IMG/VR virus record: IMGVR_UViG_3300034358_000008
Coordinates: 248,001-312,000 of that record
DNA from: a virus
Length of the DNA: 64,000 nt
Reading direction: 5' to 3' (one strand)
This document shows, piece after piece, positions 1,051 through 30,924 of this stretch (positions within the stretch are counted from its first letter, which is position 1; each line of letters opens with the position of its first letter). A program made the position numbers and the translations under genes. A model generated the notes under the pieces. The model did not search any database. It saw nothing but the letters and a program-made list of their open reading frames with translations, and was not told where the DNA came from.

Positions 1051-1935
1051 ATGACTAATGTACGTGAACTCGTTAAAACCGAAGTAGCCCTGCAAAAGAA
1101 AGCCATGATCTGGACTAACAAGCAGTTAGTGTTAGAGAAACAGGTTACTATTCAACAACTGGCTTCGGCTCTACGAGTGAGTGTAGCAAAGGCTGAAGAG
1201 GTAATGCACTTTCAGATTTACGGTGTAGGCGACGTTGCTCTGCTCGGGGTTAAATTACAGATCTTTGTGATTGACGGAAAACTCCCAGACTGGCTTCGTA
1301 AATTCCTGAACAAGATTCAGATCGCCTCAGTATTGCGTACCGCCAAGTCGACCACCAGTACATTGATCGAGCGCGATGTGCATCGTAAGGTTCTATCGCA
1401 AGTCTACGGTGATTCATTCAAAGACATTCTGACTGCAAGTTATCGCCGGGCTAGTGACACTCTATTTAATGCCTTAGTGCAGACCAATCTCGTAACTGAA
1501 GCTGCTCCATGTGAACTACATCAGTTTGATCAATTGACTAACCCACGCTGGGCGTTTGATCGCATGACTGGCCGAGCTGGTTTGGCCCACCATGTTCGTA
1601 AAGACGATGGTCTGACAGTACACATCCATTTCGGTAACCAACCTCCTGAAACTCTCGAGGCTATGGATCTTACAGTTAGCCGTCCTATCTCGGTAAACAC
1701 TGAGGCGACAACGTGTTCCCTGACTGCCGAGGAAATAGCTGATAATAAAGCTAAGCTGGAACATATCATCGAAAGCATGCGTCAAGCCGGCTACGCATTA
1801 TTGTCCGTACATAAACTCATCTCGTACCTACCCAAGAAAGGCGAAGCCCATACACGGCTATTGTTTGCTGAGAACACGGATATCGGTCTCACCATTGCAT
1901 TGACTGCACCATGGCAGGGATTGGTGTTTAAGTAA
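1051..1935 (+). CDS. Hypothetical protein, HTH-like segment near N terminus
   Basis: 294 residues, preceded by AAGGTAG. Residues about 31-50 (VTIQQLASALRVSVAKAEEVM-like) resemble a short helix-turn-helix, but this is weak. The middle (about 110-150) is helical and basic; the C terminus is alpha/beta. No catalytic motif recognised. A strong terminator follows, so this ends a transcription unit. Confidence 0.8.
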   Translation: MTNVRELVKTEVALQKKAMIWTNKQLVLEKQVTIQQLASALRVSVAKAEEVMHFQIYGVGDVALLGVKLQIFVIDGKLPDWLRKFLNKIQIASVLRTAKSTTSTLIERDVHRKVLSQVYGDSFKDILTASYRRASDTLFNALVQTNLVTEAAPCELHQFDQLTNPRWAFDRMTGRAGLAHHVRKDDGLTVHIHFGNQPPETLEAMDLTVSRPISVNTEATTCSLTAEEIADNKAKLEHIIESMRQAGYALLSVHKLISYLPKKGEAHTRLLFAENTDIGLTIALTAPWQGLVFK

Positions 1936-1946
1936 CTAAGTAATCT

Positions 1947-1970
1947 GGGGCACTTCGGTGCCCCATTTTA
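1947..1970 (+). terminator. Rho-independent terminator
   Basis: GGGGCAC-TTCG-GTGCCCC stem (7 bp, UUCG tetraloop) followed by ATTTTA. It lies immediately after the 294-aa gene and before the start of the 388-aa gene. Confidence 0.8.
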
Positions 1971-1996
1971 TGTCCTTTCTTTTTTGGGTGAATCCA

Positions 1997-3163
1997 ATGT
2001 TACCATTAACTCTTCCAACCTTTACAGGCTTACCTACTAACCCAGTCGCGATTGTTGATCCCTATACCAGTGCCAACCCTGAGCTTATGACTAAGCTCGC
2101 TTCCAAGGTAACTGCATTCGATTCAGACCTTGGCGGCATTATTGGCAGTGCCACTAAGATGGTCAAGGGTATTGGTGACCAACTCAAAAGTAGTGGTATT
2201 GACTTACCGTCAGCTGTACAGCGTGTTAAAGACGCATTAGGGGGTTCCCGGTCAGCTATCTCAGATCTAGCCGAAGGCGTCGAGCGTAGCATCTTCGGAG
2301 ACCTCACGGGCATTGACGAAGGTACTGGCTACGTTCGTGGTGCTAACACCATGATTGACTCCGTTAAGATGGTGTACGACGGAGCTGTCCGTACATTCAA
2401 AGACGGCAACTTCAAAAACGTTTCCGGTATTGTCGATTTCATCGGTGATCTATCGGGTAACAAACTAATCGGTGTATTCGACCTTGGTGCTCAAGCAGCC
2501 CTCATTAAAGGTATCTTGGGCGAAGTATCTGATTGGGGTATCCCACAACTCGTAGATGAAACCTTTGGGGCTAAATGGAACCAAGAGAAGAACTCTTACG
2601 ATTACACCTATGATGATGAGTTCCGATTCAGTGTAACTAAACGTGCATCGGAGTCGATCTCTCCATCAACCAGCTTAGAAGTAATTGATCGTTTGATGGA
2701 ACATGGCGGTGATGCAGCATTGGTTGCTAATAACCCAAGCTTCCCTCAACAACTGTTGGCAGGTTATGTGTTTCCAGAAGGTTGCATTGCAGGGGGTCCT
2801 TACCCAGTAATGATTCCTAATCCTAGTATCCCAGGCGGTACTATGCCAGACCCTACTGGCGCACAGACTGTACCTAACTACGTAGATGAAGCACGTAAAC
2901 TGGTAATCATTCTCGATCGTTTGATGCCGGGCTGGTTTGAAGTTAACCGTACTGTGTCTACTGGGATTGATAGTAACCCTTGGCGTGTTGATAAGGCTTG
3001 GACCTTTCAATATATCAATACCGCCTCAGACGCCGCCAAGGCCGTTCTAACGACTAATGCGAAATACCGTGACGCTTTCCTTGCTGCACCGTTCTATCGC
3101 ATTGAATCGGGCGTAGCGCTCCTTAAAAACATGTATCCGTACTTCGTTGAGTCCTCCAGATAA
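1997..3163 (+). CDS. Putative virion structural protein
   Basis: 388 residues from the ATG at 1997, which has GGGTGA upstream. An in-frame ATG at 1958 sits inside the terminator stem and is unlikely. The N terminus is rich in Pro, Thr, Gly and Ala. Residues about 35-110 form an amphipathic region typical of phage structural proteins, and the C-terminal half has Trp/Tyr-rich aromatic patches. A structural role is inferred from composition and isolation as a single-gene unit between two terminators; I recognise no family. Confidence 0.65.
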   Translation: MLPLTLPTFTGLPTNPVAIVDPYTSANPELMTKLASKVTAFDSDLGGIIGSATKMVKGIGDQLKSSGIDLPSAVQRVKDALGGSRSAISDLAEGVERSIFGDLTGIDEGTGYVRGANTMIDSVKMVYDGAVRTFKDGNFKNVSGIVDFIGDLSGNKLIGVFDLGAQAALIKGILGEVSDWGIPQLVDETFGAKWNQEKNSYDYTYDDEFRFSVTKRASESISPSTSLEVIDRLMEHGGDAALVANNPSFPQQLLAGYVFPEGCIAGGPYPVMIPNPSIPGGTMPDPTGAQTVPNYVDEARKLVIILDRLMPGWFEVNRTVSTGIDSNPWRVDKAWTFQYINTASDAAKAVLTTNAKYRDAFLAAPFYRIESGVALLKNMYPYFVESSR

Positions 3164-3166
3164 CCT

Positions 3167-3190
3167 AGCCTCCCTTCGGGGAGGCTTTTA
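3167..3190 (+). terminator. Rho-independent terminator
   Basis: AGCCTCCC-TTCG-GGGAGGCT (8-bp stem) followed by TTTTATG. Ends the 388-aa gene unit. Confidence 0.85.
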
Positions 3191-3214
3191 TGTTATTAGA
3201 AGCCATTTAAACAC

Positions 3215-3222
3215 TATATTAC
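3215..3222 (+). promoter_or_regulatory. Phage promoter-like TATATTAC motif
   Basis: Exact TATATTAC in an AT-rich stretch, 84 nt upstream of a microprotein gene and just after a terminator. TATATTAC is the core reported for phiKZ early promoters used by the virion RNA polymerase. The same octamer recurs at 45377. Confidence 0.6.
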
Positions 3223-3305
3223 TTCTGTGCATGATGGATAGATTAAGTGTTGTTTACTTAGTCCGAAGTTGTGCTATTGGTACCAATAACCAAGAGGTAA
3301 GTTAG

Positions 3306-3422
3306 ATGAGCACTAAGCAAAAATGGCAAGTTGCTGTAATCATCGCCGCCGGTTGCACTGCTACTGCACTGTCGGTCCTCTACGTAACCCGTGACACCAT
3401 CCTTGGACGGATGGACACGTAA
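3306..3422 (+). CDS. Membrane microprotein (38 aa)
   Basis: A 38-residue frame with GAGGTAAG ending 3 nt before the ATG. A basic N terminus (MSTKQKW) is followed by one hydrophobic segment at residues about 8-26, then a short polar tail with Arg and Asp. It looks like a single-pass membrane microprotein. It shares its layout with the 45-aa microprotein at 3567, and the two flank a folded RNA segment. Function unknown; a role at the host membrane is only a guess. Confidence 0.55.
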   Translation: MSTKQKWQVAVIIAAGCTATALSVLYVTRDTILGRMDT

Positions 3423-3430
3423 CTAGCAGG

Positions 3431-3529
3431 GAGTTAAGTGGATTTAACTCTGAAGTGCCGTCCTCTGAGTTTGAACCCAGAGACGTTAGGAGATGGCAGG
3501 GGGAAACACAACTAGAGCAGCCACTCCTA
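3431..3529 (+). ncRNA. Cluster of three consecutive RNA hairpins (possible ncRNA or structured leader)
   Basis: Three stems pack into about 100 nt. H1 (3431-3450) is GAGTTAA/TTAACTC, 7 bp. H2 (3459-3485) is CGT(c)CTCTG/CAGAGACG, 8 bp with one bulge. H3 (3487-3529) is TAGGAG(a)TGGC/GCCACTCCTA, 10 bp with one bulge and a 22-nt purine-rich loop. The segment is non-coding, lies between two microprotein genes, and is followed by a terminator at 3745. It could be a free RNA or the 5' leader of the 45-aa gene. Confidence 0.45.
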
Positions 3530-3566
3530 CATGTTACATACATTCACTAAGAGGAAAAAGATCCAA

Positions 3567-3704
3567 ATGCAGTCTTCAAAAACGGAAGATAAGAAAGACA
3601 ATAGCAAACGCGTACGTCGCATGATGGAAGCGTGTCTAACTGCGGCAGCGTGTACATACTTAGGCATCACAGCCTATAGAAAGCTAACTGAACCAAAAAG
3701 CTGA
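3567..3704 (+). CDS. Membrane microprotein (45 aa)
   Basis: 45 residues, with AAGAGGAAAAAG about 7-10 nt upstream of the ATG. A very basic, polar N terminus (residues 1-19, many Lys/Arg) precedes a hydrophobic Ala/Cys/Leu-rich segment (about 20-36) and a short polar C terminus, giving a probable single-pass topology. It ends 40 nt before a strong terminator. Same organisation as the 38-aa microprotein upstream. Function unknown. Confidence 0.55.
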   Translation: MQSSKTEDKKDNSKRVRRMMEACLTAAACTYLGITAYRKLTEPKS

Positions 3705-3744
3705 TAGTTGCCTGGCATCTATTGGTTATTGATTTTCGGTTACC

Positions 3745-3768
3745 GGGGGGTGGGGACCCCCCTTTTTC
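3745..3768 (+). terminator. Rho-independent terminator
   Basis: GGGGGGT-GGGG-ACCCCCC perfect 7-bp stem followed by TTTTT. Ends the microprotein unit. Confidence 0.85.
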
Positions 3769-3803
3769 CAACAACTCAATTACGTAAATTCAATAGGTGG
3801 CCC

Positions 3804-4592
3804 ATGGAAAAGATATATGTTGTGCATTACATCATCGATACGTATGGTGAAACAACCAACTACCGAACGGTAAATATGACGGAGGTAATAGACCGTTACG
3901 AGATGTTGACTGACCGCATCAAAAAGGCCATGTTGACCAATGGCATCGAAAACCCAGACGAACTGGTTACCTACTCCTTTCGGATGTTGGGTGATCTGCG
4001 TAATGGTCACTACCAACGGAAAGAACTGGTTGAAGTTAACCTGGAAGCTCTGAAGGAAGACCTCACTGGGTTCCCGTGGGAGAACTGGGATTGGGTAAAA
4101 GCCTTCCAGCCTGTGGTTGATGTCGCTGGCTACTCGATTGTAGAACTTGAAAAAGAACTTCAGTCGTTCGGTCCGTCGATGCATAAGTCTAACGATTACG
4201 TCGCACCGTGCTATCGTATCTACGAAAGCGGGCGGGCGGATTACCGTAAGTCGGAGTTCACTGACAACACCAAGAAGCAACAGCAAACCCCACCTGCCCA
4301 GAAACCGTGGTATGCGCGATTCAAGGATAACTACCTTGTCCCTTTCGGTGATGCACTTACTGAAAATGCGCCAACCATTCTGGCTGTAACTACCACGATC
4401 GCGGCAGTGGCTGTAATGATGCATACTTCTAATGAGTCAGTACATGTGGTCGAGGAGGCCACTCGCAAGAACGAAGAACTGTTGCGACACATCGAAGAAA
4501 CGATCGAGGATGCCGTGGAGTTACCCCAGATCGTTAAGGTTGAACTCGGTGATGACATCGAGGTCATTGCGACAGGTCATCGTACCTGGTAG
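3804..4592 (+). CDS. Hypothetical membrane-anchored protein
   Basis: 262 residues from the ATG at 3804 (GGTGG just upstream). In-frame starts further 5' would run through the terminator at 3745-3768 and were not used. The first 150 residues are soluble and acidic. A Gln/Pro-rich linker (about 155-170) leads to one hydrophobic segment at about 189-207 and then an acidic, Glu-rich tail that may be coiled-coil. It is the third membrane-associated gene in a row. Function unknown. Confidence 0.75.
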   Translation: MEKIYVVHYIIDTYGETTNYRTVNMTEVIDRYEMLTDRIKKAMLTNGIENPDELVTYSFRMLGDLRNGHYQRKELVEVNLEALKEDLTGFPWENWDWVKAFQPVVDVAGYSIVELEKELQSFGPSMHKSNDYVAPCYRIYESGRADYRKSEFTDNTKKQQQTPPAQKPWYARFKDNYLVPFGDALTENAPTILAVTTTIAAVAVMMHTSNESVHVVEEATRKNEELLRHIEETIEDAVELPQIVKVELGDDIEVIATGHRTW

Positions 4593-4600
4593 CAATACTT

Positions 4601-4627
4601 AGCCCCCTCGTCGGAGGGGGCTTTTTA
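4601..4627 (+). terminator. Rho-independent terminator
   Basis: AGCCCCCTC-GTCG-GAGGGGGCT, a perfect 9-bp stem followed by TTTTTA. Confidence 0.9.
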
Positions 4628-4651
4628 TAACCTGATGCTGGAGTATTTCAT

Positions 4652-4960
4652 ATGAAGGTTTCCGTAATGGTGGCCAACTACTTTGCTTTAATAAAGGAGT
4701 TGAACCGTCTTGATCGAAAGAAACATGAAATCGTTTTGATGGCTAACCCAGGTGCAGTGCATTCAGTTACATTGCATTTGATTGATGAAGGTGCTCGTGC
4801 TTTCGTCAAGGTAGTAGAAGGTGAGGCCTGTACCGTTACACTCTGGAATGCTCAGGGTGAATACGATACTGGTTTGGAAATCACCGACGGTAACATCAAG
4901 GAGTCAGCTCAGCAGATAGTTGATTATCTACATAACCCAACGAATGCGTTTAAGGAGTAA
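4652..4960 (+). CDS. Small paralog-array protein 1
   Basis: 102 residues. First of a head-to-tail run of small genes. It has an N-terminal helix, a beta-rich centre, and a C-terminal signature: Asp-containing strand, helix with Ala/Gln/Ile-Val, then YLHNP. The next two proteins share this signature (IVSYLKNP, IMQYLKYM). GGAG precedes the start. No known family. The shared pattern suggests duplication and divergence of one small fold. Confidence 0.7.
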   Translation: MKVSVMVANYFALIKELNRLDRKKHEIVLMANPGAVHSVTLHLIDEGARAFVKVVEGEACTVTLWNAQGEYDTGLEITDGNIKESAQQIVDYLHNPTNAFKE

Positions 4961-5305: not shown

Positions 5306-5609
5306 ACTGAAAAACGCAATGTCATTGATCAATCGTCTGGAGAAGCTTGAAACTAAAAACTTCAAGCTTTTCGTAAGACTGTTGTTCTCTGAGAATGGCT
5401 TCATCATTTCACCCGTTGGGAAGAAACAATGCATTAAGCTGTACGTTGAACAGCACCATCACCTGTTGGCCGTGTACATTAATCACCGTGAGAAATATGA
5501 TACGGAAACGATTATTGCTGACGATGCTGATTTGGATGAACTGGCTAACAAGATCATGCAGTACCTGAAATACATGGAACACGTTGTAGAACACGAACAG
5601 TGTAGTTAA
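5289..5609 (+). CDS. Small paralog-array protein 3
   Basis: 106 residues from the ATG at 5289, which overlaps the preceding gene by 17 nt and has AGG upstream. Earlier in-frame ATGs lie deep inside the preceding gene. N- and C-terminal segments are homologous to the protein at 4964-5305. It has a His-rich middle and acidic end. Function unknown. Confidence 0.7.
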   Translation: MLIAPELKNAMSLINRLEKLETKNFKLFVRLLFSENGFIISPVGKKQCIKLYVEQHHHLLAVYINHREKYDTETIIADDADLDELANKIMQYLKYMEHVVEHEQCS

Positions 5610-5639
5610 ACAAACCCTAATCCTTAAAGGAATTTACCC

Positions 5640-5981
5640 GTGCCTAAGACTAAATTGATCCTGCTTGAACAATCCCTCGTCTCCATGCTGGATCATTGCA
5701 TGGGTGAAGCGTGGGTTGAATGTGGTGATAACCTACCCGATGTGGTAGTGCATAACCTCGTCGATGGTCACCTTACCTGGACTGTACATGGTCAGGCAAC
5801 AACTGAACTGCATTATCGCGTTGACTTCATGTTCACCGATGATGACGTCTGCTTCGTTGAATGGGAGCAAGGTGTGGGTATTCAATCCTACGCATTCCCT
5901 AACCCGACCGAAGAACGTTTCTTCATCATGGCTGGAATGGCATTGGCCTTCCAATCTAACGTTCTCCAACAGATCCAGTAA
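5640..5981 (+). CDS. Small paralog-array protein 4 (GTG start)
   Basis: 113 residues from a GTG start preceded by AAAGGA. Acidic and beta-rich with several Trp and Cys. Its size and helix-sheet-helix pattern resemble its neighbours, but sequence similarity to proteins 1-3 is not obvious by eye. Function unknown. Confidence 0.7.
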   Translation: MPKTKLILLEQSLVSMLDHCMGEAWVECGDNLPDVVVHNLVDGHLTWTVHGQATTELHYRVDFMFTDDDVCFVEWEQGVGIQSYAFPNPTEERFFIMAGMALAFQSNVLQQIQ

Positions 5982-6906: not shown

Positions 6907-7776
6907 TTAACGAAGGTAGTTAGGACGACGAACACCTTTAGCACGATCCCAATCAAGAATCTTGATCAGTTCCGATACATCACGATGCTCAGCAGACTCC
7001 AACCCAAGGCGTGTACGCTTCTGGTTATCATCTTGGATCTTCCACAGTACATCAGGGGTGATCTGACGTTCAGGGATGATCATTGCTTCTTCAGCTGTGA
7101 AGTTTTCCAGAGCAGGAGAAGTATATTTGTTAGCGGTAAAGATACCACCTTCACCTACGAAGTCCCATGTAGAGATTTCACGGGTGTACTTAATGCCACG
7201 GTATTGATCGTCCTGAGTAATAGAACGTACCGAACAGTAAGTGTTAATGCTTGGGTTATCCAGCGAGTCTTTGAAGACTTGAGCAAAAGGACCGTAAGGT
7301 TTAACTTCAGCTACAACCATCTTGACAGGCTTACCCTGCTCATTCGTACCTGGAACAATAGTCAGGTTACGGATGTGTGCACAAACGCGGTTGTCGTCGA
7401 TCTGACGAATCCGCATGAGGTACTCAGCATCAGAGAGTGGCTTACGAACAACCCGACCATCGATCATGAGATCTTGGAATGGTTCAGGGTGTTTGAACTC
7501 CATGAACAAAACGCCTTTCTTAAGACGTCTCATCAAAGAACTCGATGGTTCAAACATCGCTACGCCGGATGCTTCATCATAAAACATACCAGCGGAGTTT
7601 TGTGTACCATAGCTACCAACCACGAGGGTGTAGTAACCGTCAGCATCCGCAGGAAGGATGCCGCGTTTGTTAGTACCAGCCAACATCGCACAACCAACAG
7701 TAACTGCTGATTGCGCCAAGGCAACTTGACCAGATGGGTTAGGGATCGTTCTCCCTCGGATAAGACCTAAGTTCAT
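6907..7776 (-). CDS. Prohead protease (T4 gp21 / phiKZ gp175-like)
   Basis: 289 residues. Proteases of this family cleave scaffold and head proteins during capsid maturation. Seen: an EFKHPE motif at about 93-98 (His96), matching the E-x-x-HP catalytic His region, and a CSVRS motif at about 181-185 (Ser182), matching the nucleophile block near residue 140-180 in gp21-type enzymes. The spacing and the upstream VVAEVKPYGPF strand fit the fold. It is the last gene of the leftward head operon, as expected from the phiKZ gp175-gp180 order. The third catalytic residue was not assigned. Assignment is by motif and context, not search. Confidence 0.7.
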   Translation of the reverse strand: MNLGLIRGRTIPNPSGQVALAQSAVTVGCAMLAGTNKRGILPADADGYYTLVVGSYGTQNSAGMFYDEASGVAMFEPSSSLMRRLKKGVLFMEFKHPEPFQDLMIDGRVVRKPLSDAEYLMRIRQIDDNRVCAHIRNLTIVPGTNEQGKPVKMVVAEVKPYGPFAQVFKDSLDNPSINTYCSVRSITQDDQYRGIKYTREISTWDFVGEGGIFTANKYTSPALENFTAEEAMIIPERQITPDVLWKIQDDNQKRTRLGLESAEHRDVSELIKILDWDRAKGVRRPNYLR

Positions 7777-7789
7777 ATACCACTTCCAT

Positions 7790-8509
7790 TTAAGTGCGGA
7801 GCAGTTCTTCGATCATCTCAACCGACTCAGATTGGTTAACCAGAGCAGAGTTGATACCTTCGCTGTAATAAGCACCGTTTAGTTTAGACGTTGTATCGGA
7901 AGTGTTCCAAATAACAGAACGGAAGGGAACCGTAACAGGAGGTTTAGTCCGTAGGTCTTCCGGGCGTGCAAGGATGTGCCGATACAGCCGAGTCATATCA
8001 TTCGGATCTCGAGCAATAGTTGAAATAATCAACTCGATAATCGAACGACCACCAAGGTCAACCCCGGCGTGCTCTTTTGCTGTGTCGAACATATTCGCCA
8101 TGTCGAAGTAATCCATGTACCAAGGAATGTTACCCTTAGCAATGAACTCATCGTACATGTAGTAACTGAGGGTGTCTGTCACAACCAAAGCGGTCGTGTA
8201 GATTAACTTGTCTCCAGCTTCAAACTGGAACTCGATGTAAGGTGTTTCGTTAACTACGATCTTCTGCGTGGAGCTAGGACAGATACGCATCATTGCGATA
8301 GTCTTGTTAACAGCGTATCGGTCTCCCATGATGATCGGGAAGAAACCAAAGACAAAAACCTCACTGCCTAGGACAGCAAGGTTCTTAGCTGTAAAACTTT
8401 CGGGAATCTGTACGGTACACGGAACAGTAGTAACGACACTTCCATCGGATTCTTCTGACAAACGACTGAGTACGTAGTCTGCATCACGAATCAGATTTGG
8501 AGTGTTCAT
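7790..8509 (-). CDS. Putative head/virion structural protein
   Basis: 239 residues. Soluble, mixed alpha/beta, no enzymatic motif seen. It lies between the prohead protease and the ParB-like/GNAT protein in a leftward operon, separated by 10-13 nt on each side, so a head-morphogenesis or structural role is inferred from context. The position would correspond to phiKZ gp176. Confidence 0.6.
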   Translation of the reverse strand: MNTPNLIRDADYVLSRLSEESDGSVVTTVPCTVQIPESFTAKNLAVLGSEVFVFGFFPIIMGDRYAVNKTIAMMRICPSSTQKIVVNETPYIEFQFEAGDKLIYTTALVVTDTLSYYMYDEFIAKGNIPWYMDYFDMANMFDTAKEHAGVDLGGRSIIELIISTIARDPNDMTRLYRHILARPEDLRTKPPVTVPFRSVIWNTSDTTSKLNGAYYSEGINSALVNQSESVEMIEELLRT

Positions 8510-8519
8510 GGGTTATCCT

Positions 8520-9743
8520 TTAATTTTTAAGCCAAACTTCGTAGGAGCTACCGTCATCTTCACGAATGGTCTTACCACTACGTTTGAATCCAGCCGACTC
8601 GAATAACTTTTGACTCTTAATGTTGTCAGGTTCAATCATAGCTCGACCGGGTTTATCTGCAAAATACTGCGCTACAAATGCCCCAGCTATACCTTGATGT
8701 TGGAATCGTTGAGTAACGAAGATTGCGCCTGTGCGGTATCGACCGTCGCCGTCCTTACGTGGTACAGCAAAACCAACGACCTCGGTCCCCTTAAAGAAAC
8801 CAGTTACGGTCTTAGTTTTACGTCCCCTAACGACATCCCCTAAAAACCTGTCCCCTTCAGACTCATCGATTAACTTAACAATCATTGGGTCATCAACAGA
8901 GATGGATTTAAAAGATACGTCACCGAAAGATTCTTGACCGAGCTTAGTCTTAAGGTCACGATGAAACTTATCAGCAGCTTGACGTTCACTGATTGTTGGT
9001 GGAAGATCCTTAACTACGTTATCAACGTGAGCTTTAAATCGATCACCTTGCGACACAGATGCGTAAGCTGTACGACGTTCACGCTCTTCAAACATCAAAG
9101 GAGAACCTTGATGAATGTCTTGCAGTCTAGCTACACGATCAGGTAAAGGCCAGTTAGGCTCAACACCCATAGCGTCACATTCACTGGTAAGGCGCTTCTC
9201 TTCAGCTTGTAGCACTAATTGAGCAGACTTAGAATTCGCAGCAGCGGCGTAAGCTTCTGCCTTGGTGAAGTAACCTTCTTTGCTGACTGTTTGCTTTGTG
9301 AGTTTACGGATCAACGCATCGTTAACTACGATAGCTAGAATAGTCTGATGACCATCTTGAGCTGCACGTACTACACGGTGATAACCATCTAAGGTAGCAA
9401 AGTTCCCCGGAGAATACTCATGGACTATAACTGGATATTTGAGATCTACTTTAGCAACGCGTTCTGCATCAACTGAAGTAGCGGGTTCAATCATCCATAC
9501 AAGTTTAGAGATAGGGAAGTTAACTGGTGTCATACCCTTAGTGACTTTCAGCAATTCATCTACCAAGTAAACTGAACCTTGGTGGGAGAATAAGCTATCT
9601 GCGCCTTCCTTGTACTCACTACCAACCTTCTGGGATTCCGTCCAAGCGGGATAAGGGAGGCCGTTCCGCCGGGCGTGTAGCCTAGCGAGACGGCGCTCAA
9701 TTTCTCCGGGACCCCAAGCTTCGTTAGAAGGTTGGCTTAGGTC
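8520..9743 (-). CDS. ParB-like + GNAT-like protein, probably made as a -1 frameshift extension of the 680-aa protein
   Basis: The open frame runs from the slippery site to 8520 (407 codons). The only conventional start is a TTG at 9566, giving 348 aa. However, the 59 codons upstream of it (LSQPSNEAWGPGEIERRL..., PAWTESQKVG...) look fully coding and contain no ATG, GTG or TTG. The frame is -1 relative to the 680-aa gene and begins at a CCCTTTG heptamer. Domains seen: a ParB-like segment just after the TTG (PISKLVWM..., DGYHRVVRA) and a C-terminal GNAT-like acetyltransferase fold (RFQHQGIAGAFVAQYF acetyl-CoA loop; LFESAGF). Its place in the head operon suggests a virion or capsid-assembly role. 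If translated as a fusion the product would be about 1086 aa. Confidence 0.65.
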   Translation of the reverse strand, partial: DLSQPSNEAWGPGEIERRLARLHARRNGLPYPAWTESQKVGSEYKEGADSLFSHQGSVYLVDELLKVTKGMTPVNFPISKLVWMIEPATSVDAERVAKVDLKYPVIVHEYSPGNFATLDGYHRVVRAAQDGHQTILAIVVNDALIRKLTKQTVSKEGYFTKAEAYAAAANSKSAQLVLQAEEKRLTSECDAMGVEPNWPLPDRVARLQDIHQGSPLMFEERERRTAYASVSQGDRFKAHVDNVVKDLPPTISERQAADKFHRDLKTKLGQESFGDVSFKSISVDDPMIVKLIDESEGDRFLGDVVRGRKTKTVTGFFKGTEVVGFAVPRKDGDGRYRTGAIFVTQRFQHQGIAGAFVAQYFADKPGRAMIEPDNIKSQKLFESAGFKRSGKTIREDDGSSYEVWLKN

Positions 9744-11779
9744 AAAGGGGTTTCGTCATCTTCTTCAGATTCTTCATCGGTAGTTTCAGTCTCTTCGACT
9801 TCGGCTTCCTCAGATTCTTCTGCGTCAGTTGCTTCAGCGGTAGATTCGGTTTCTTCAGTTGCCTCGGTTTCGGTTTGTTCAACCTCTGTCTCAGCTTCTT
9901 CAGTTTCCTCTACTTCTTCAGCGACTTCCTCTTCGTCACCTTCGTCGGTTTCGAGATCAGCGTACGGATCTGCTTCTTCATCGCTGCCGTCACCTGTAAA
10001 GTCTTCTTCGACGTCTGTTTCCGCTTCACCAGTTTCGGCTACATCGGTTTCACCAGTAGCGTCACCGAGATCGGTATCGTCAGCAGTGCCATCAGTACCC
10101 AGATCACCAGCTGTGTCGTCCAGACCATCCCCAAGATCGGAAGTGTCATCACCCAGACCAACATCAGACAAGCCGTCATCGCCATTAACACCGGCGTCGC
10201 CGACAGTGCCTTCTTCACCGGCAATACCCAGTTCGTCGCCACCCAATCCAGCTTCGCCTTCATCTGTAGCTTCATCATCAGCAATAGCCAATAGACCGGA
10301 ATCATCGATAGGACCAGTAGCAGAACCTTCAGGATCAATCTCAGCTGAGAACATTTCAACCTTGACTTGTTTAGCCTGGAAGATAGCAACCAGAGTAATC
10401 ATCGCTTGCGTAGCCAGTTCACGAACGGTAGCCTTGGTATAAGTCTGACCAAACTGATCGATTGCATCCAGATACTCAAGGTAGGTGGATTCAGGGAAGT
10501 ACACACGGCAAACCAATGCCGAGAACACTTTGTACGGATTGTCGTAATCATCTCGACGAACGTAACGCAGTGCTTCAATCAGACCCTGTTCCATTTCTGG
10601 AGTGTAACGATCTTTCAACAGTTCACTACGACCGATTTCACGGAAAGCAGAGATAACGTTGTTCAGACGTTGACGATCAGAGTAGTCAATTGCAGCCTGT
10701 TGGATCATCGGATAGATTTCGTGCCAACGTTCAATGAACTTGTGAGCAGCAGCATTCAGATACTTAACGTCAGTAACGCCAGTGTTCTCAACAGCAGCAC
10801 CCAAGATAGCTTGAATGTCACCACCACCTACAACCCATGGATCGAATACGTCACCGTTAACAGTAACGATAGCACGACGGGTAGCGATAGGGTTGGTAGC
10901 TTCGTTCTTCAGAATCATTACACCCTGTTCACGCATGTCAGCACGACGCACGTAAGCGCGCATCAGATAGAAGCCGAACATTTCGTGCAACAGTTTCATG
11001 GTGTGTTCCCACTCTTCCAGATCAACGGAGAAGTTAGGGACGACCACTGGGTTGTCGATATAGTGACCGCAGATGAAATAAGCGACCAGCAAATCGTCAA
11101 CGTTGAACGGAGCAGCTTGTGCTGACAGGTAAGGCAAACCAGCAGGCATTACGTGACCAGTAGTGAACAAGGAGTTCCATACCAGTTCCAGTCGTGCACT
11201 ACCAACTTGCAGAGCCCACTCGGTGATCTCTTCTTGCTCAAGGTGTGGGTTGTTGACCGACATCATTTCGATAATCGATTCAGCAGTCTGACCTTCGAGT
11301 TGGAAAGACTTATAAGAGTCTTTAGGACGAACGGTGGTGTAACGAGTGTTGATGTGGTTAACCAACGTGGCACTGTTGTGTGGTGCCAGATAACGCCATG
11401 CCTTAACCGAGTACTCGGGTTGGCAAGAAGCCGATTGCATACCAGCATAAGTCTGGTGCATAGCTTTAATAGCAGGGATAATAACGTTAGTCGTGTTGAA
11501 CTGAACCTTGGCTACAGCTTGACCCAAGTTAGCAACGATCGATTCACGGGAATCATCTTCAGCTGGAGTGGTATCTTGGTTGATCGCATCGAAGTGATCT
11601 TCTACTGCTACCATCTCTTCATCAGGCAATGCAGTGTTGGTTGGTTCGTCGTCAACTTTGTAGGTATCGGCGAATACAGCCAGGGGGAACTCAGGGTTCC
11701 CCACAGTCAGTACTTTACCTTCCCGAGTCAACGTCTGGGCCGCGTCACGGACAGCGTCCATAGTTTCGGATTGGTACAT
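9737..11779 (-). CDS. Head-operon protein with extremely acidic C-terminal tail
   Basis: 680 residues. The first about 490 form an ordinary alpha-rich protein (RGD-like and Arg-rich helices, Trp/Tyr motifs). The last about 190 are low-complexity Asp/Gly then Glu/Thr/Ala, nearly devoid of Lys and Arg. Acidic tails of this kind occur in scaffold or portal-associated head proteins. The gene lies between the RNA polymerase beta-like gene and the prohead protease, so a virion or scaffold role is inferred. It ends at the slippery site described for 9743-9749. Probable counterpart of phiKZ gp177 by position. Confidence 0.65.
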   Translation of the reverse strand: MYQSETMDAVRDAAQTLTREGKVLTVGNPEFPLAVFADTYKVDDEPTNTALPDEEMVAVEDHFDAINQDTTPAEDDSRESIVANLGQAVAKVQFNTTNVIIPAIKAMHQTYAGMQSASCQPEYSVKAWRYLAPHNSATLVNHINTRYTTVRPKDSYKSFQLEGQTAESIIEMMSVNNPHLEQEEITEWALQVGSARLELVWNSLFTTGHVMPAGLPYLSAQAAPFNVDDLLVAYFICGHYIDNPVVVPNFSVDLEEWEHTMKLLHEMFGFYLMRAYVRRADMREQGVMILKNEATNPIATRRAIVTVNGDVFDPWVVGGGDIQAILGAAVENTGVTDVKYLNAAAHKFIERWHEIYPMIQQAAIDYSDRQRLNNVISAFREIGRSELLKDRYTPEMEQGLIEALRYVRRDDYDNPYKVFSALVCRVYFPESTYLEYLDAIDQFGQTYTKATVRELATQAMITLVAIFQAKQVKVEMFSAEIDPEGSATGPIDDSGLLAIADDEATDEGEAGLGGDELGIAGEEGTVGDAGVNGDDGLSDVGLGDDTSDLGDGLDDTAGDLGTDGTADDTDLGDATGETDVAETGEAETDVEEDFTGDGSDEEADPYADLETDEGDEEEVAEEVEETEEAETEVEQTETEATEETESTAEATDAEESEEAEVEETETTDEESEEDDETPLT
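9743..9749 (-). promoter_or_regulatory. Putative -1 ribosomal frameshift site (C CCT TTG)
   Basis: Reading the minus strand, the last codons of the 680-aa gene are ACC CCT TTG ACC TAA. C-CCT-TTG fits the X-XXY-YYZ slippery consensus in the correct frame. Slipping -1 enters the otherwise start-less frame of the downstream ParB/GNAT protein two codons before the stop. I did not find a clear stimulatory hairpin at the usual 5-9 nt spacing. Confidence 0.5.
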
Positions 11780-18138: not shown

Positions 18139-21100
18139 ATGGCTAAAAAGACTATTCCTCTCGTCAAACCAAAAGGTACTGACGGCAAGGGGAACATCAA
18201 AGTACCGGGCGGTCCGTTGGTTCTAGACCTGGGCGATTTTGACGATATGTTTGGTCCTCTGGAGAGTGATTCTCCTAAGGGCGGACCTCTCGACGAATTC
18301 TGGTCAGGGATGAAAGAATCATTCAGTGATCGTGTACAGGTTAAAGATGTAGTCAGAAACTTTTTACGCTCGGCTGCTCCTGATGGTATCTCTAACCTGA
18401 TGGGCTTTGCCGATGAGGCATTGAGCGCATCTCGGGATATCAAAGAGTCTCTCGAACGTACTAACGCATCTGACCTACAATACATCGCTAAGCGGGCGCA
18501 AGCTCTCCTACCGAAATTACAAGACTACGCACCTGAAGGTATTTACAACGACATCAGTCAGGGTCTAGAGAATAAGATTGACGAGTACGACTACACGATT
18601 CAATCGGCTCGTGATCAAACTCCTATTCGTCGGGCTGCTCAAGAACGAACTGAAACTAGTGAGATCGAATCGGCACTGGACAACATTGCTCTCTCGAGCA
18701 AGGTTAACCACAACCGCTCAGAACATGGCGCTCAAGTACGACATAACCAAACTCGTGCAGAAGCCAGTGTTCGTGATTTGCTCAAAACTAAACGCTTTGA
18801 CTTCATGGCTAAGTCCATGGGCATGGCGAATGATAGCCTTCAACAAATTAATGGTTACAACCAACAGGTTAACTTTGGCTTCCAGCGTAAAGGCTTGGAA
18901 CTCCAATTCCGTAGCTACATGGGTATCAAGGAACTCATCAAGCTTCAGGAAGCTAACCTTGAATTGAATGCTCGTGCATTTAATGCGATGATTCGTAACA
19001 CCGGCATGACTGACTTCGAGAAGAACGGGAATAAAGACCTGCAATCGATGGGTGGTCAAGGTGGTGGTAAGCGTCAAGGGTTGGTATCGAAAGCTACTAA
19101 CAAAACCCTTTCTCACTTCCTTGGTAATTATGGTGGTGAAGCACAAGGTCGTATCTCAGGCGACATCAGTCAGAAACTCAGCATGGCCGTAATGGCTATG
19201 AAGATGGGTGAAGGTTCTGGCGGTAGCATGTGGAAGAACAAGTACAAGATGGCAGGTAACTTTGCTGGCGATCAAGCTGGCGACTTCATCTTGAATGAAC
19301 TGATTCCAATGTTGGGTCGTGAGGCTCGTCCGGGTCTGACTCGTGCTTCTGACAAACACTTAGGTGGCGCACACAACAAGGTTGGTTATGCGTTGGATAA
19401 CATCCCTGCGTTCTTGCAGGAGTTCGTTAACAACAACCAAAACCAACACGGGATGAAAGGAAAGCTCAGAGGTTTGATCGCTCCATACGTCCCACAGTTC
19501 GGTCTTCAAGATCGCACGAAGAGTTCCAACTATCAAACAATTGATCAACCTGCCCAGTTTAACCAAATGACTCAACGAACTATCGTTGATGCTCTCCCCG
19601 GTTACTTGGCACGTATTCTTCAAACTCTCCGTCAGATTAAGACAGGTAGTGACGATGTTGGTCGTGAGATTTGGGACTTCACCACAGGTAAGTTTACAGT
19701 AGAAGGTTCGGCCCATGATAGCCTCCTAGCTAAGATCGTTCCTAAGAATGCTATCCGTTCTGCATCGACTACTATTAACGACGCACTGAACACGATGGAC
19801 TCCGGGGGCAACCTTAGCCCTAAGGCTCGTCAAGCTTTGTCCGAACGTATGTTGCGTGATGCATCTACTAACCGTCGTTTCGATCCAGAGGCTTATGTCA
19901 AGTCTGGTGGTTATGCTAAAGACATGCCTGCCGATGTTGCTAAAGAGCTGGAAGGCTTCTTTAATAGCAAGTTCGAGATGGATGGTCAAGGCGGGATGGT
20001 CGATAACGCCAAGAACAACAAACTCCGTCAAGAGTTTTCTCAAGCGTTCTTGGATATCCGTAGTATCTCTCGTGATCCAATCAAAGAGATCTCACGGATT
20101 ATCGATTCGGGTCACACTGATGGTCTGCGTGCTATCGGTATCATTATTACTGAGGATGGGATCGATAAGATCAACTACCCTCGTATCTGGGAACTACTGC
20201 GAAGTGGTGTAACGGATGGTAACCCATTCGGTCCAGGTGGTAATGGTGGACATGATCCAAGCCGTGATGATCAATCGGGTAACGCGGGTCATAAAGACTT
20301 CATGGGACCTAAGGCTCCAGGTGATGCCGATTGGGTTAAGGGTAAGCTGAGTCGGTTCCGTACCAAGTATGCTCCTGAAGAACAAGCTGCTCGTGATCAG
20401 ATGGCTAAACACCTGAAGACTATGCGTGGTCGTTTCGGTAGTGCTGCTAACCATGTTCAAGACATGGCTTCCAACTTACCGGGACAGTTCCAAGACCTCC
20501 AAAAACAAGCCGGTGAAGCAGGTGGTTATTCCCAACTGTTGAGCGGTAAGTATAAAGGCCAGATGCAGGGTATGGCCGATACCGGGATGGCTGGTTTCAA
20601 TCAGTTCGTCGGTAAAGCATCTAACGTTGTAAACGACGCCGTCAGCAGTGTTGTTCACCGCTCCGAAGATGTTATCACAGACCTGTATTCCCAGTTCGAT
20701 AAGAACTATCCGGCATTGCGGGCTAAGGATTTCGTTAACGGTAGTCTGATCGATGTTAACACCAAGCAAATTATTACCAAGCTCAGCGACATCACGGGTA
20801 AAGTAATTAACATGGCTGGTGACACCATCCTGACCGCCAACGAAGTAGCTGCTGGGCTGATGAACCCAAATGGCGATATCGTTCTTAAGGTAGATGGGAA
20901 TTCTACCAGTAAGGTTGGCGATGCAATCGATAAGAACCAACCTAAGCTTAACGGTGAAGGTGGGTCGGGTGATCCACAAGATCCTAACTCGGAAGAGAAC
21001 CTCAATTCTCAAGACTGGGCACTTGGTCCCGGAGAGAATATCGTCCTTACTGCCCGTGGATTACTTAACGGTGAGTATCGAGATGAAGCAGGTAAGATCA

Positions 21101-24100
21101 TCAACTCGATTAAGGATATTGCTGGTGACGTCTTTGACAAAACTGGTAACGTAGTCCTGACAGCTAAAGAGTTTGCTGGTGGTCTGTGGGGTCGTCGTTC
21201 TGGTACTCGTTATCGTCCGACTAAGAACTTTGCTCGACTTCTTCGGTTGGGTAAAGCTGCCGGTAGGTTCTCCAGTCAGTCGGCTGGTACTATCGCTTGG
21301 GGCGCTACTAAGTTTATGGCTAAGGCCACACTTGGTATTGCATCTCGTCTGTTCAACATCTTCGTGGATAACCAGAACGCCTATACTGAAGGTGACCCTA
21401 TCCCAGTATTGACTCGTCGCTCTTTGGCTAACGGTGAATACTTTGATGATAAGGGTAAGGTCATTGAGAACTTTGTGGATGTGTATTCCATTATCCACGA
21501 TGCTAAAGGTGAACCGGTAATTCCTGCTGATCAATATAAACTACTCAAGAACTACGATGGTACTCGTCACGTACTGGCGAAGAACAAACGTATCTGGGGT
21601 AAGTTGGTCATGCGTCCTCTTCGGGCCATGCGTAACGCTTACGCTCGTCAAACCAAGAAGTACTACAAATGGCTCGGTAAAACGTCCGTTAAAGTAGGTG
21701 GTTGGGTAGGTAAGAAAACGTTGGGTGGTTTCGCTAAAGCAGGTGGGATGATCTTCAACCGCATGTTTGAGAAGATCCCTGATGAACAGCGTGCTACAGC
21801 GGAAGCGACAGCTGCCGGTGCATCCGTAGCTAACCAGCCTGTTGTCGAGGGCCTTCAAGAAATTCTTCAAGAACTGAAAGATCAGAAGCCTAAAGAAATC
21901 CGTAAGGGTAGCTGGCAAGATAAAGACGGGAAGAAAGAAGAAGGCGAGAAAGAGAAGAAAGGTGACGCGAAAGAAGAGAAGAAAAGTGGCTTCTTAAAAC
22001 GTGGCCTTGCTGGTATTGCCGGTATGTTAGGCCTGGGCGGTAAGAAAAAGAAAGACGATGGTGAGGAAGGGGAAGAAGACGAAGATGGTGGTATCATGGA
22101 CTCCATCAGTGGTGCTGCTGACATCAACTCGCTCTCGGGAGGGAAAGGCGGCAAGATCATGAAGTGGGGTAAGAAACTCATCGGCGGTAAAGCCAGTAAA
22201 ATGCTCGGTAGCATAGCTAGCTCGAAGGTTGGGCAGTTTATCGGTAAAGCTGGCGGCCAAATGCTGATGCGTGGTGCCATGATGGCAGGTACCGCTATTG
22301 CTGGGTTGTTGAGTGGACCTGTACTACTCATCGCTGCGGCAGTTGCCGTAACGGCAGGTGCAGCGTACCTTGGTTGGAACCGATACAAAAATATCTCGGG
22401 TGAATTCCGTGAACTGCGGTTGGCTCAGTACGGTGTTGATAAACCGGTTAGCAAAGGTTTTATCGATTCCATTACATCGATGGATATGTTTAGTCTTGGT
22501 GGCGACAAAATCAAGATTCTCAAGATGGAAGGATTGCTTGATAAATTCACATCCAAAGACGCAGAGAAACCCCAAGTTAACATCAGTGGTGCAGGTGGTC
22601 AAGAACTGCTTGACATCATGGGTATTGACATTGACGACGAAGCTGCTGTAATGGTGTTTGCACGTTGGCTCGAGAAACGTTTTAAACCAGTCTATCTCCA
22701 GTGGATTGGTGGTTTGAACAAGATCGGTCAAGGTACCGTTAATATCAACGACGTCGACGATAAAGTCCCTGAAGAACTGAAAGGTGATTTCCTTGAGACC
22801 ATTCGATTCCCTTACAACAACGAGTCTCCTTACGTTGTAACCGAAAACCCATTCAGCCCAAGCTATCCCCTCCCTAACAACATGGACGTAATCTCTAAGA
22901 TGTTCGATGAACTCAAAGAGAAGTACGGCTTGAAGAAGAAAGAGGCGGAAGAGAAGAAAGCTGCTGAGGCTGGCAAAGACGGTAAACTGGGTACTCCTGC
23001 CGATGTGGCGAAGTCTGCTACTGATGGGATTGCTAAAGATGCTGTTGCTGCAACTGGTGGTGCCGCTGCTGGCGCTGGTGCAATGTCTGCTGCTCAAAAG
23101 CTGGCTAATGAAGCTAGTCAGAAAGATAAGACAGAGCAAGACAAGTTGAAGTCGCCTACTGAAGTTGCCAATGCAGGTGTGTTGTCTGCAAGCCAAGCTG
23201 TGGCTGGTATGAGCGGTGAGATTGCTGACCTTAGCGCGAAGTTGGGTCGTACTCTAACGGCGCTCCAAGCGATCCGTATGCGTGCGTACGGTATGCAGTT
23301 CCTTACCGCCGCTGAAGTTACTGCTGTATTAGCGTTGGAAGCTATCTATGCAAAAGACCTGACTGTATCAGCTACTAGTGTGGACTACGGCGGTGACGCT
23401 GGAGTACTACTTAGTGAAGCTGGACGTCTGTTGGGTAAAGATACTGCTATCGGTGCTGATGATCGATATGCATTGCATGGCTGGCTGACTAACCGTTTCA
23501 CTCCTGTGTTCCGTGCATACTTCGGTGCTGCTCGTAACGTTCAACCTGCGGCTAGTCTGGCTGGTTTGGAATCGAAACTGACCGCCAGTGATAAGGTTAC
23601 AGTGGCTACTGCCATGTTGGGTGCGTTGGATGCATTCAAACGCTCTATTTGGGATGCTCCATCGTTGTTTGAAATTATGGGCGATCCTAAACAGTTGAAG
23701 GCTCTGGCAGATGCTGATCTGGCATCGTTGCAGAAAGACGCTGAGAAAGAAGCCCTTGCGACTCCTACTCAGAAATCATCCGATGCCGTAGCGGGTAAAG
23801 CAGCTGCTGATAAAGGTGGTAGTTTCGCAGATCAAGTCATGTCAGGTATTAAAGATACTTGGGACTCGGCTAAAGAAACTGTTTCGTCTGCATGGAACAA
23901 TGCAACTGATGCCGTTGGTGATACTGTCGCCGGTGCTAAGATTGCATTGGGTATGGGTCCAGAGTTTGGTGGTGGCGGTACAGCCAAAGGTGGTACTGTT
24001 CAGTCCGCTGGTAATACCGGTGCAGTAGTTGCTGGTAACGGTGGTCAGTGGGAAGCTATTCCTATTCCTACGGCTAGTGGGTCTATCAAAGCTGCGCTGC

Positions 24101-30126: not shown

Positions 30127-30424
30127 ACGTCCTATCCGTCGTAGTTCAGTGGTTGCCTATAAAGAAGGTGGTCATTTATTCTACGGGCGGGTTATCCGAG
30201 TTTTACCTAACGGTGATATCTTCTGGTTGTGCTGTGGACTTCATTTCCATATCACTCCAGTAGCCGACTTGCATCACTTGTCTTACAAAGGTCGCTACAA
30301 CTGGAAGAAACATTGGATTCCAATGACTAGCCTTAGGAGTCTTAAACTTCAGGCCACGCGGTACCATTATGAGTACGCTCATAACACGCCGCTCGACTAT
30401 CACCACATTCGGAGAAAGCTATGA
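30110..30424 (+). CDS. Small hypothetical basic protein (non-ATG start)
   Basis: Up to 104 residues. There is no ATG; TTG at 30110 or TTG at 30119 are the possible starts, both overlapping the preceding gene. Basic, beta-rich N-terminal half (VVAYKEGGHLFYGRVIRVL) and His/Tyr/Arg-rich C-terminal half. Ends with an ATGA overlap into the next gene. Start uncertain, function unknown. Confidence 0.55.
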   Translation: MVELCKRPIRRSSVVAYKEGGHLFYGRVIRVLPNGDIFWLCCGLHFHITPVADLHHLSYKGRYNWKKHWIPMTSLRSLKLQATRYHYEYAHNTPLDYHHIRRKL

Positions 30425-30924
30425 ATATCTGTCCTACTGGTTACTGTGGTTATCCATGCATGTGTGCATCGTCTTACAACCATGTAAATGCCACAGACAC
30501 CAAAGAACTAATTGGTATCTTGAAGAAGCGTCTTACCACAATTGCTGAAGGCGTAGCTAGTAAAGATACCGGCGAAGCGATGGTCGAGTTTGCAACCAAG
30601 ACCGCTGTGATCAAAGTGATCCGTTGTGATAATGCGGTTCATCAAACAAACATCGAGTTGCACAAGTTTACCCCTAACTTGAATCCTGAGGGAATCAATG
30701 CCCTTAGTGGAATGTGTTCGATCCTAAAGGTTGGCGATACATTCAAATCTAAGGAAGGGTACGATCCAGATGCTACAGGTTGGATCAGTTACGAGATCGT
30801 CAACTATAAAGGTGAGATCTCTGTTCAGGTGGTCACTAAGTCTACAGCCTATCCCGATATGACCGCGTACATCGGCTTCGAAGATGGTCTAACCTATTAC
30901 CCAAAGGATGCACTCCCAGCATGA
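30421..30924 (+). CDS. Hypothetical protein with Cys-rich N terminus
   Basis: 167 residues. The N terminus has four Cys in the first 16 residues (CPTGYCGYPCMC), possibly a small metal site, followed by an alpha/beta domain. ATGA overlaps at both ends place it in a coupled operon. No family recognised. Confidence 0.7.
   Translation: MNICPTGYCGYPCMCASSYNHVNATDTKELIGILKKRLTTIAEGVASKDTGEAMVEFATKTAVIKVIRCDNAVHQTNIELHKFTPNLNPEGINALSGMCSILKVGDTFKSKEGYDPDATGWISYEIVNYKGEISVQVVTKSTAYPDMTAYIGFEDGLTYYPKDALPA

Follow-up and report, generated by a model that had tools for sequence, protein, structure and literature searches.

How is a reading frame of 411 codons expressed when it opens within the end of another gene and the first codon at which translation could start lies 59 codons beyond the point at which ribosomes would slip into it? 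The question is raised by a 64,000-nucleotide stretch of viral DNA, referred to here as the window, which comprises bases 248001–312000 of the 324,912-bp IMG/VR virus record IMGVR_UViG_3300034358_000008. Among named phages, the phiKZ-like jumbo phages 201phi2-1, Viktualia, Phabio, and PhiPA3 come closest to this record, which belongs to a giant, phiKZ-related phage of Pseudomonas. The upstream gene encodes a homologue of the phiKZ head protein gp177, and the −1 frame that follows it (the tail) encodes enzyme-like domains. Comparison of seven phage sequences makes it highly probable that the two frames are joined by programmed −1 frameshifting at the end of the gp177-type gene. A longer chain, in which the tail is also carried into the head as cargo and is released there by the prohead protease, in a manner resembling retroviral Gag-Pol, is given a probability of about one in two.

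The probable slip site and the −1 frame

The gp177-type gene ends with the sequence GAA ACC CCT TTG ACC TAA. The original prediction placed a slip at an in-frame C-CCT-TTG heptamer two codons before the stop, with the −1 frame following, and the coordinates and the X XXY YYZ phase agree with this placement (Table 1). The −1 frame extends without a stop over 411 codons, from 9755 down to 8520, and its first candidate start is a TTG at 9566, with no ATG, GTG, or TTG earlier. The distance from GAC at 9743, the first −1 codon past the slip, to this TTG is exactly the 59 codons that had been counted. Slippage on C CCT TTG would produce a fusion of 1086 amino acids, the approximate length that had been predicted, with a computed mass of 120 kDa and the junction ...ETPLDLSQPSNEAW....

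The window was scanned for in-frame XXXYYYZ heptamers located at most 20 codons from the end of an open reading frame (ORF) and followed by a −1 extension of at least 50 codons. The scan returned only two matches, the gp177-type ORF and one other gene. The second match (ORF 30421–30924 on the plus strand, with CCCAAAG at 30900 and a −1 frame of 220 codons) was rejected, as its −1 frame starts at an ATG of its own and is a case of ordinary gene overlap.

Comparative evidence for frameshifting

The junction is common to seven divergent phages, namely the window phage, 201phi2-1, Viktualia, Phabio, PhiPA3, and the IMG/VR contigs L012 and L013. All seven feature CCCCTTT[G/A] two codons ahead of the zero-frame stop, followed by a homologous −1 frame that opens with the pattern PF.[LV].Q.S.E[AT][WF]. 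Comparison of the heptamer in relatives had been suggested as a check on the original prediction, and the frameshift gains strong comparative support from it, through the conserved heptamer and −1 frame, the invariance of the site, and the selection on codons that precede any start. A collection-wide scan with the pattern gave no further members, and a search of the genome contig collection gave no relatives.

The slip site is conserved at the nucleotide level. When the seven gp177 genes are aligned by codon, the third bases of shared four-fold codons agree in just 35–64% of pairwise comparisons, and identity at synonymous sites outside the slip site is near background. There are 49 dipeptides conserved in all seven proteins, of which the Pro-Leu at the slip site alone keeps an identical six-nucleotide n-NNN-NNn stretch. 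The Leu codon of the slip site is TTG in four phages and TTA in three, and it is never CTG; in overall leucine codon usage CTG accounts for 60% and TTA for 1%.

Selection on the −1 frame was assessed from differences at the first, second, and third codon positions. Ahead of any ATG, GTG, or TTG these differences are 14/14/36 in three disjoint pairs (p = 1.4e-4), and up to the annotated ATG of the short relatives they are 19/16/47 (p = 7e-6), with p-values that are approximate as the compared sequences are kin. The third-position excess before any start codon indicates translation of this stretch in the −1 frame, for which no standard start codon offers an explanation.

As an alternative, the downstream frame could be an independent gene that needs no frameshift and is expressed through reinitiation or from a start that is internal or non-standard. 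Relatives with an ATG start had been named at the outset as a possible counter-sign, and five do have an ATG, at codon 33–36 of the −1 frame, along with a TTG at codon 21–24; annotators chose the ATG. However, protein-level selection acts on the codons that precede every possible start, the −1 frame of L012 has no start codon within its first 70 codons, that of the window has no ATG there, and the heptamer is nucleotide-invariant. Additionally, a start at the window TTG would be predicted from the structural model to delete the beta-hairpin with which the ParB-like fold begins. A separate gene is considered very unlikely. A sequencing error or a decayed gene would be a further explanation, given that the window junction is seen in raw sequence only and that the phiKZ tail has decayed; this is refuted by the same junction in seven independent genomes, deposited isolates included, and by the purifying selection on the −1 frame, which leave it a negligible probability.

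In phiKZ, the gap after gp177 (L005, about 4560–4707) encodes in the −1 frame IDDKLRYLEGYR, which aligns to IEDKLRRLEERR of PhiPA3 with a score of 40 that none of 2000 shuffles reaches. The remnant is interrupted by stops, which suggests that phiKZ lost the tail secondarily, and the loss from the model phage may be a reason that the junction was overlooked. None of the annotated records examined joins the two frames. The records of 201phi2-1, Viktualia, Phabio, and Psa21 have a truncated downstream gene, and in the PhiPA3 record the tail, a −1 frame at record positions 188233-188586, is without annotation; PMC10449902 reports 11 PhiPA3 ORFs that had not been described before. Within the searchable papers, which exclude the two core proteome papers on phiKZ and 201phi2-1 as well as supplements, the frameshift is not reported.

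The carrier protein

The zero-frame product has 680 amino acids, a mass of 74.7 kDa, and an isoelectric point of 4.05, and features an acidic C-terminal stretch of about 180 residues. Judged by alignment, the protein is a homologue of phiKZ gp177 and is thereby assigned to a family of internal, protease-processed head proteins, whose member in phiKZ is injected. The original view of an acidic head protein with an extension holds as far as the head protein is concerned. The suggested likeness to minor extended capsid or tail proteins does not fit an internal, processed gp177 homologue, whose extension may be cut off as cargo.

The prohead protease cuts 201phi2-1 gp271 at AVE-61 and phiKZ gp177 at SVE-60, and its cleavage sites follow the consensus S/A/G/T-X-E in the former phage and S/A/G-X-E in the latter (PMC5694885). 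In the window protein A-V-E is present at residues 58–60, which makes it, by sequence alone, a candidate N-terminal site for the prohead protease. Inner-body proteins interact with phiKZ gp177, and a C-terminal 3xFLAG fusion of phiKZ gp177 was found in one blot to be packaged and injected (PMC10449902). The delivery of the FLAG-tagged protein indicates that C-terminal additions to gp177 can be packaged and delivered. The homologous protein of SPN3US, gp243, is essential and is required to incorporate the abundant ejection proteins gp53/54 (PMC5694885). Sequence searches of the PDB with gp177 and with the tail gave no convincing match, and a fold search with the gp177 core gave no match.

Domains of the tail

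A core of roughly 110 amino acids is common to all seven tails, and in five phages it stands without any enzyme domain. The ParB-like insert, of sulfiredoxin (Srx) fold, is found in the window and L012 only, the GNAT-like domain in the window only, and a Psa21-type module in L012. The ParB-like domain features the DG.HR motif as DGYHR; its best Foldseek E-value is 2e-3, with none below 1e-3, and it has no Pfam match. The best Foldseek matches for the tail are sulfiredoxin, Noc/ParB, and GNAT enzymes, all with E-values of 2e-3 or worse. The GNAT domain misses the Pfam cut-off, with 21.1 bits vs. 23.6 and lower scores for two further models, and it is therefore named GNAT-like only. GNAT folds are among the fold-search matches, a QxxGxA-type motif is visible, and Burkholderia phage FLC9 encodes a free-standing protein that is 47.8% identical to the region; the AlphaFold confidence is low for this region and fairly good for the ParB-like one. 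The ParB-like and GNAT labels of the original prediction are supported only at the fold level, with sub-threshold Pfam GNAT scores and marginal Foldseek matches.

Related ParB-like proteins are encoded by free-standing genes in Machina-type and EL-type phages, and another ParB-like gene, likewise free-standing and starting at an ATG of its own, is located in the source genome outside the window (G000:C1:35594-35863, L051). A ParB-like domain is also present in PA5oct ORF140 (L052, 2099-2848), a structural protein of an unrelated jumbo phage that was detected by mass spectrometry (MS). This protein links the domain to virions and counts in favor of the cargo chain proposed below.

Similar junctions in other phages

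A different slip sequence is found at the end of the gp177 homologues of Psa21 and three IMG/VR relatives (L026-L029; L027 = Psa21). In these genes (end region, about 5600-5880) a single codon separates an in-phase G GGA AAG from the stop, and the −1 frame continues for 86–89 codons. The codon-position differences are 26/19/42 (p = 0.003), a third-position excess counted over codons both before and after possible starts. The Psa21-type tail and the C-terminal module of the L012 tail are homologues (34% over 82 amino acids), the slip sites differing. No such tail was found on the gp177 homologues of RVTF4, L025, L030-L032, PA1C, HPP-Temi, Noxifer, RAY, and LucasX.

D6, RVTF4, Psa21, and IMG/VR relatives feature a second carrier, a different internal head protein whose gene ends with NNA AAG TAR and is followed in the −1 frame by codons for a ParB-like domain. 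Full heptamers are present in D6 (G GGA AAG), RVTF4 (C CCA AAG), and L047 (A AAA AAG). The annotated start of the downstream frame is an ATG about 18 codons past the stop, which L047 does not have, and the codons before the annotated ATG are under selection (6/4/20, p = 2e-4). In L048 the ParB-like domain of this second system is encoded by an ordinary gene with its own ATG. The second carrier is shorter in L009 (Psa21, 3441-3983) and L047 (about 2396-3007), with about 180–200 codons vs. about 460, and the junction and −1 frame are retained in both. Together with the phiKZ remnant, the G GGA AAG junctions of the gp177 homologues and the junctions of the second carrier count in favor of frameshifting.

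Proposed release and delivery of the tail

Directly past the slip, all seven tails feature S-x-E followed by A or T, where x is N, S, T, T, T, K, and N; the residues after the motif are AWGPEE in 201phi2-1 and TFDIED in PhiPA3. In the second −1-frame system, S-x-E is found at the matching place in 8 of 8 distinct phages, where x is N, Q, V, N, T, T, L, and K. S-x-E occurs at 0.46% of positions in the window ORFs. The motif beside the slip fits the prohead-protease consensus, which suggests that cleavage there could release the tail. More [SAGT]-x-E motifs are located in or near predicted linkers of the window fusion (GSE 720, SKE 833, and GQE 948); these could split the tail into ParB-like, core, and GNAT-like modules, a post hoc reading that is only suggestive.

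In the proposed chain, most ribosomes would terminate at TAA to give the 74.7-kDa form, and a minority would slip −1 on C CCU UUG, adding the tail of 407 amino acids to give the 120-kDa fusion. The gp177 part would bring the tail into the head along with the ejected inner-body proteins, and the prohead protease would cut S-x-E↓A just past the slip, inside the head. The freed cargo, a basic protein of 399 amino acids and 44.5 kDa, would carry ParB-like and GNAT-like domains in this phage and different modules in relatives, and it would pass into the host together with the DNA. The cargo dose would be set by the frameshift rate.

Another explanation is that the frameshift is real and the tail stays attached, which would make the product a minor form of the head protein that is permanently extended and either has a structural role or binds DNA. 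All of the frameshift evidence fits this explanation equally, and the helical core that lacks an enzyme domain in five phages could be structural. However, two −1-frame systems feature the invariant S-x-E directly at their junctions and the free-standing L048 gene does not have it, the gp177-type carrier is a known substrate of the protease, and the enzyme-like inserts vary, as cargo should. A permanently attached tail is possible, at odds clearly below even. A further explanation is that the frameshift serves mainly as translational control or for low-level production of a tail that stays unpackaged and has its function inside the infected cell. The free-standing ParB-like genes of the Machina-type and EL-type phages are consistent with such a role, as is the 201phi2-1 record, in which gp270 is not marked as MS-detected and gp271 is marked. 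This explanation is improbable, as it leaves unexplained why both carriers are internal head proteins and why S-x-E is conserved, and the ParB-like relative in PA5oct is a virion protein.

Several observations weigh against the proposed chain of packaging, release, and delivery. The MS marks of gp270 and gp271 are among them. The injection assay is a single blot, on phiKZ, a phage without an intact tail. The S-x-E motif is short, and the acidic C-terminal stretch of gp177 holds many matches. In the G GGA AAG group, S-x-E is located in the zero frame and is shared by tail-less relatives (S-T-E); since these relatives also carry the motif, its presence in this group was dropped as support for release. 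The second carrier has a full heptamer in just 3 of 8 sites, the other five having only A_AAG, so that slippage is less certain there. The majority of gp177 homologues in other phages are tail-less. Additionally, no strong stimulatory RNA structure was found downstream of the heptamer; the small hairpin at that position is weak, and single-sequence folding energies are no better than those of shuffles, except in PhiPA3. A different RNA fold forms in PhiPA3, and RNA structure was not used as support.

Genomic context

The phiKZ gene order is preserved at this locus (vRNAP beta, gp177, gp176, gp175), and the −1 frame sits between the gp177 and gp176 homologues. Elsewhere in the window there is a very long ORF of 2371 amino acids at 18139-25254 on the plus strand.

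Table 1. Features of the gp177-type locus in window coordinates; the last row refers to the sequences named in it.
Feature	Position	Strand	Evidence
Zero-frame gene, homologue of phiKZ gp177, 201phi2-1 gp271, and PhiPA3 gp208	9737..11779	-	tblastn and alignment to 10 relatives; PHROG 3841, E 3e-127
Slippery heptamer C CCT TTG, phase X XXY YYZ	9743..9749	-	CCCTTT then G/A invariant in seven phages
Zero-frame stop TAA, two codons past the slip	9737..9739	-	Sequence
−1 coding stretch after the slip, 407 amino acids and stop, tail of the 1086-residue fusion	8520..9743	-	Conserved in six relatives
Small hairpin CCAA-CTTC(UAAC)GAAG-UUGG, seven nucleotides past the heptamer, possible weak stimulator	9714..9735	-	Consensus fold
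S-N-E, fusion residues 685-687, candidate prohead-protease site S-x-E↓A	9720..9728	-	S and E invariant in seven phages; consensus from PMC5694885
ParB-like/sulfiredoxin-fold domain, tail residues 53-147	9309..9593	-	PHROG 17560, E 4e-20; AlphaFold predicted local distance difference test (pLDDT) 75-95; Foldseek sulfiredoxin, Noc/ParB, E 2e-3
Conserved helical core, second part (RVARLQDIHQGSPLM.EER ... KLGQ)	8943..9263	-	Seven-tail alignment
GNAT-like acetyltransferase domain, window only	8523..8918	-	Pfam PF13673/PF13508/PF00583, E 3e-4 to 2e-3, below curated cut-offs
Homologue of phiKZ gp176, first gene downstream of the −1 frame, own ATG	7790..8509	-	60% identity
Prohead protease homologue (phiKZ gp175, 201phi2-1 gp268), proposed cargo-releasing enzyme	6907..7776	-	55% identity to phiKZ gp175; 83% to 201phi2-1 gp268
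Second-carrier junctions	L008 (D6) 2640-4378; L035 (RVTF4) 1592-3324; L009 (Psa21) 3441-4318; L041-L047		

Relation to known systems

Frameshift-extended phage head proteins have been described for gene 10 of T3/T7, Lactobacillus phage A2, and Listeria phages A118, A500, and PSA (PMC5009743). As in these systems, a slip near the end of a head gene would give some copies an extra C-terminal domain. The known examples, however, are major shell proteins that keep an immunoglobulin-like or other exposed extension, whereas the carrier described here is assigned to an internal, ejected, and processed family, the additions are variable and enzyme-like, and a protease motif is located at the junction. 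The chain also resembles retroviral Gag-Pol, in which enzymes enter the particle attached to a structural protein, as part of the minor frameshift product, and can be freed by the maturation protease (PMC5009743). It differs in that the phage is an unrelated double-stranded DNA virus, the protease is encoded by a separate gene, release is putative, and the cargo would go to the host. The heptamer of the lambda G/GT tail assembly chaperone is G GGA AAG, as in the Psa21-like gp177 genes. A −1 slip would be common to both systems; however, the lambda chaperone is absent from the virion, its protein and gene position are unrelated, and the window uses C CCU UUG. T4 Alt and the T4 internal proteins (IPs) are packaged in the head, injected, and cut C-terminal to Glu by the head protease, Alt being cut at ITE-6 and LTE-619 (PMC5694885); unlike the tail, Alt has its own gene and no frameshift. 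The proteins phiKZ gp177, 201phi2-1 gp271, and SPN3US gp243 are of the same family as the zero-frame protein, and the tail is undescribed in the searchable papers. Within the known class of frameshift-extended phage head proteins, the case described here features an unusual carrier and a plausible Gag-Pol-like logic.

A tentative generalization, with chances a little short of even, is that programmed −1 frameshifting serves some nucleus-forming jumbo phages generally for the dosing of injected effectors, with interchangeable cargo at low stoichiometry, varied ejected inner-body proteins as carriers, release by the prohead protease at S-x-E, and delivery with the genome. The findings suggest a simple rule for delivery, in which a protein is fused to the C-terminus of a gp177-type protein with a protease site. 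If the generalization is true, it would represent a Gag-Pol-like system in double-stranded DNA phages, in which ParB-like cargo is placed on different carriers in different phages.

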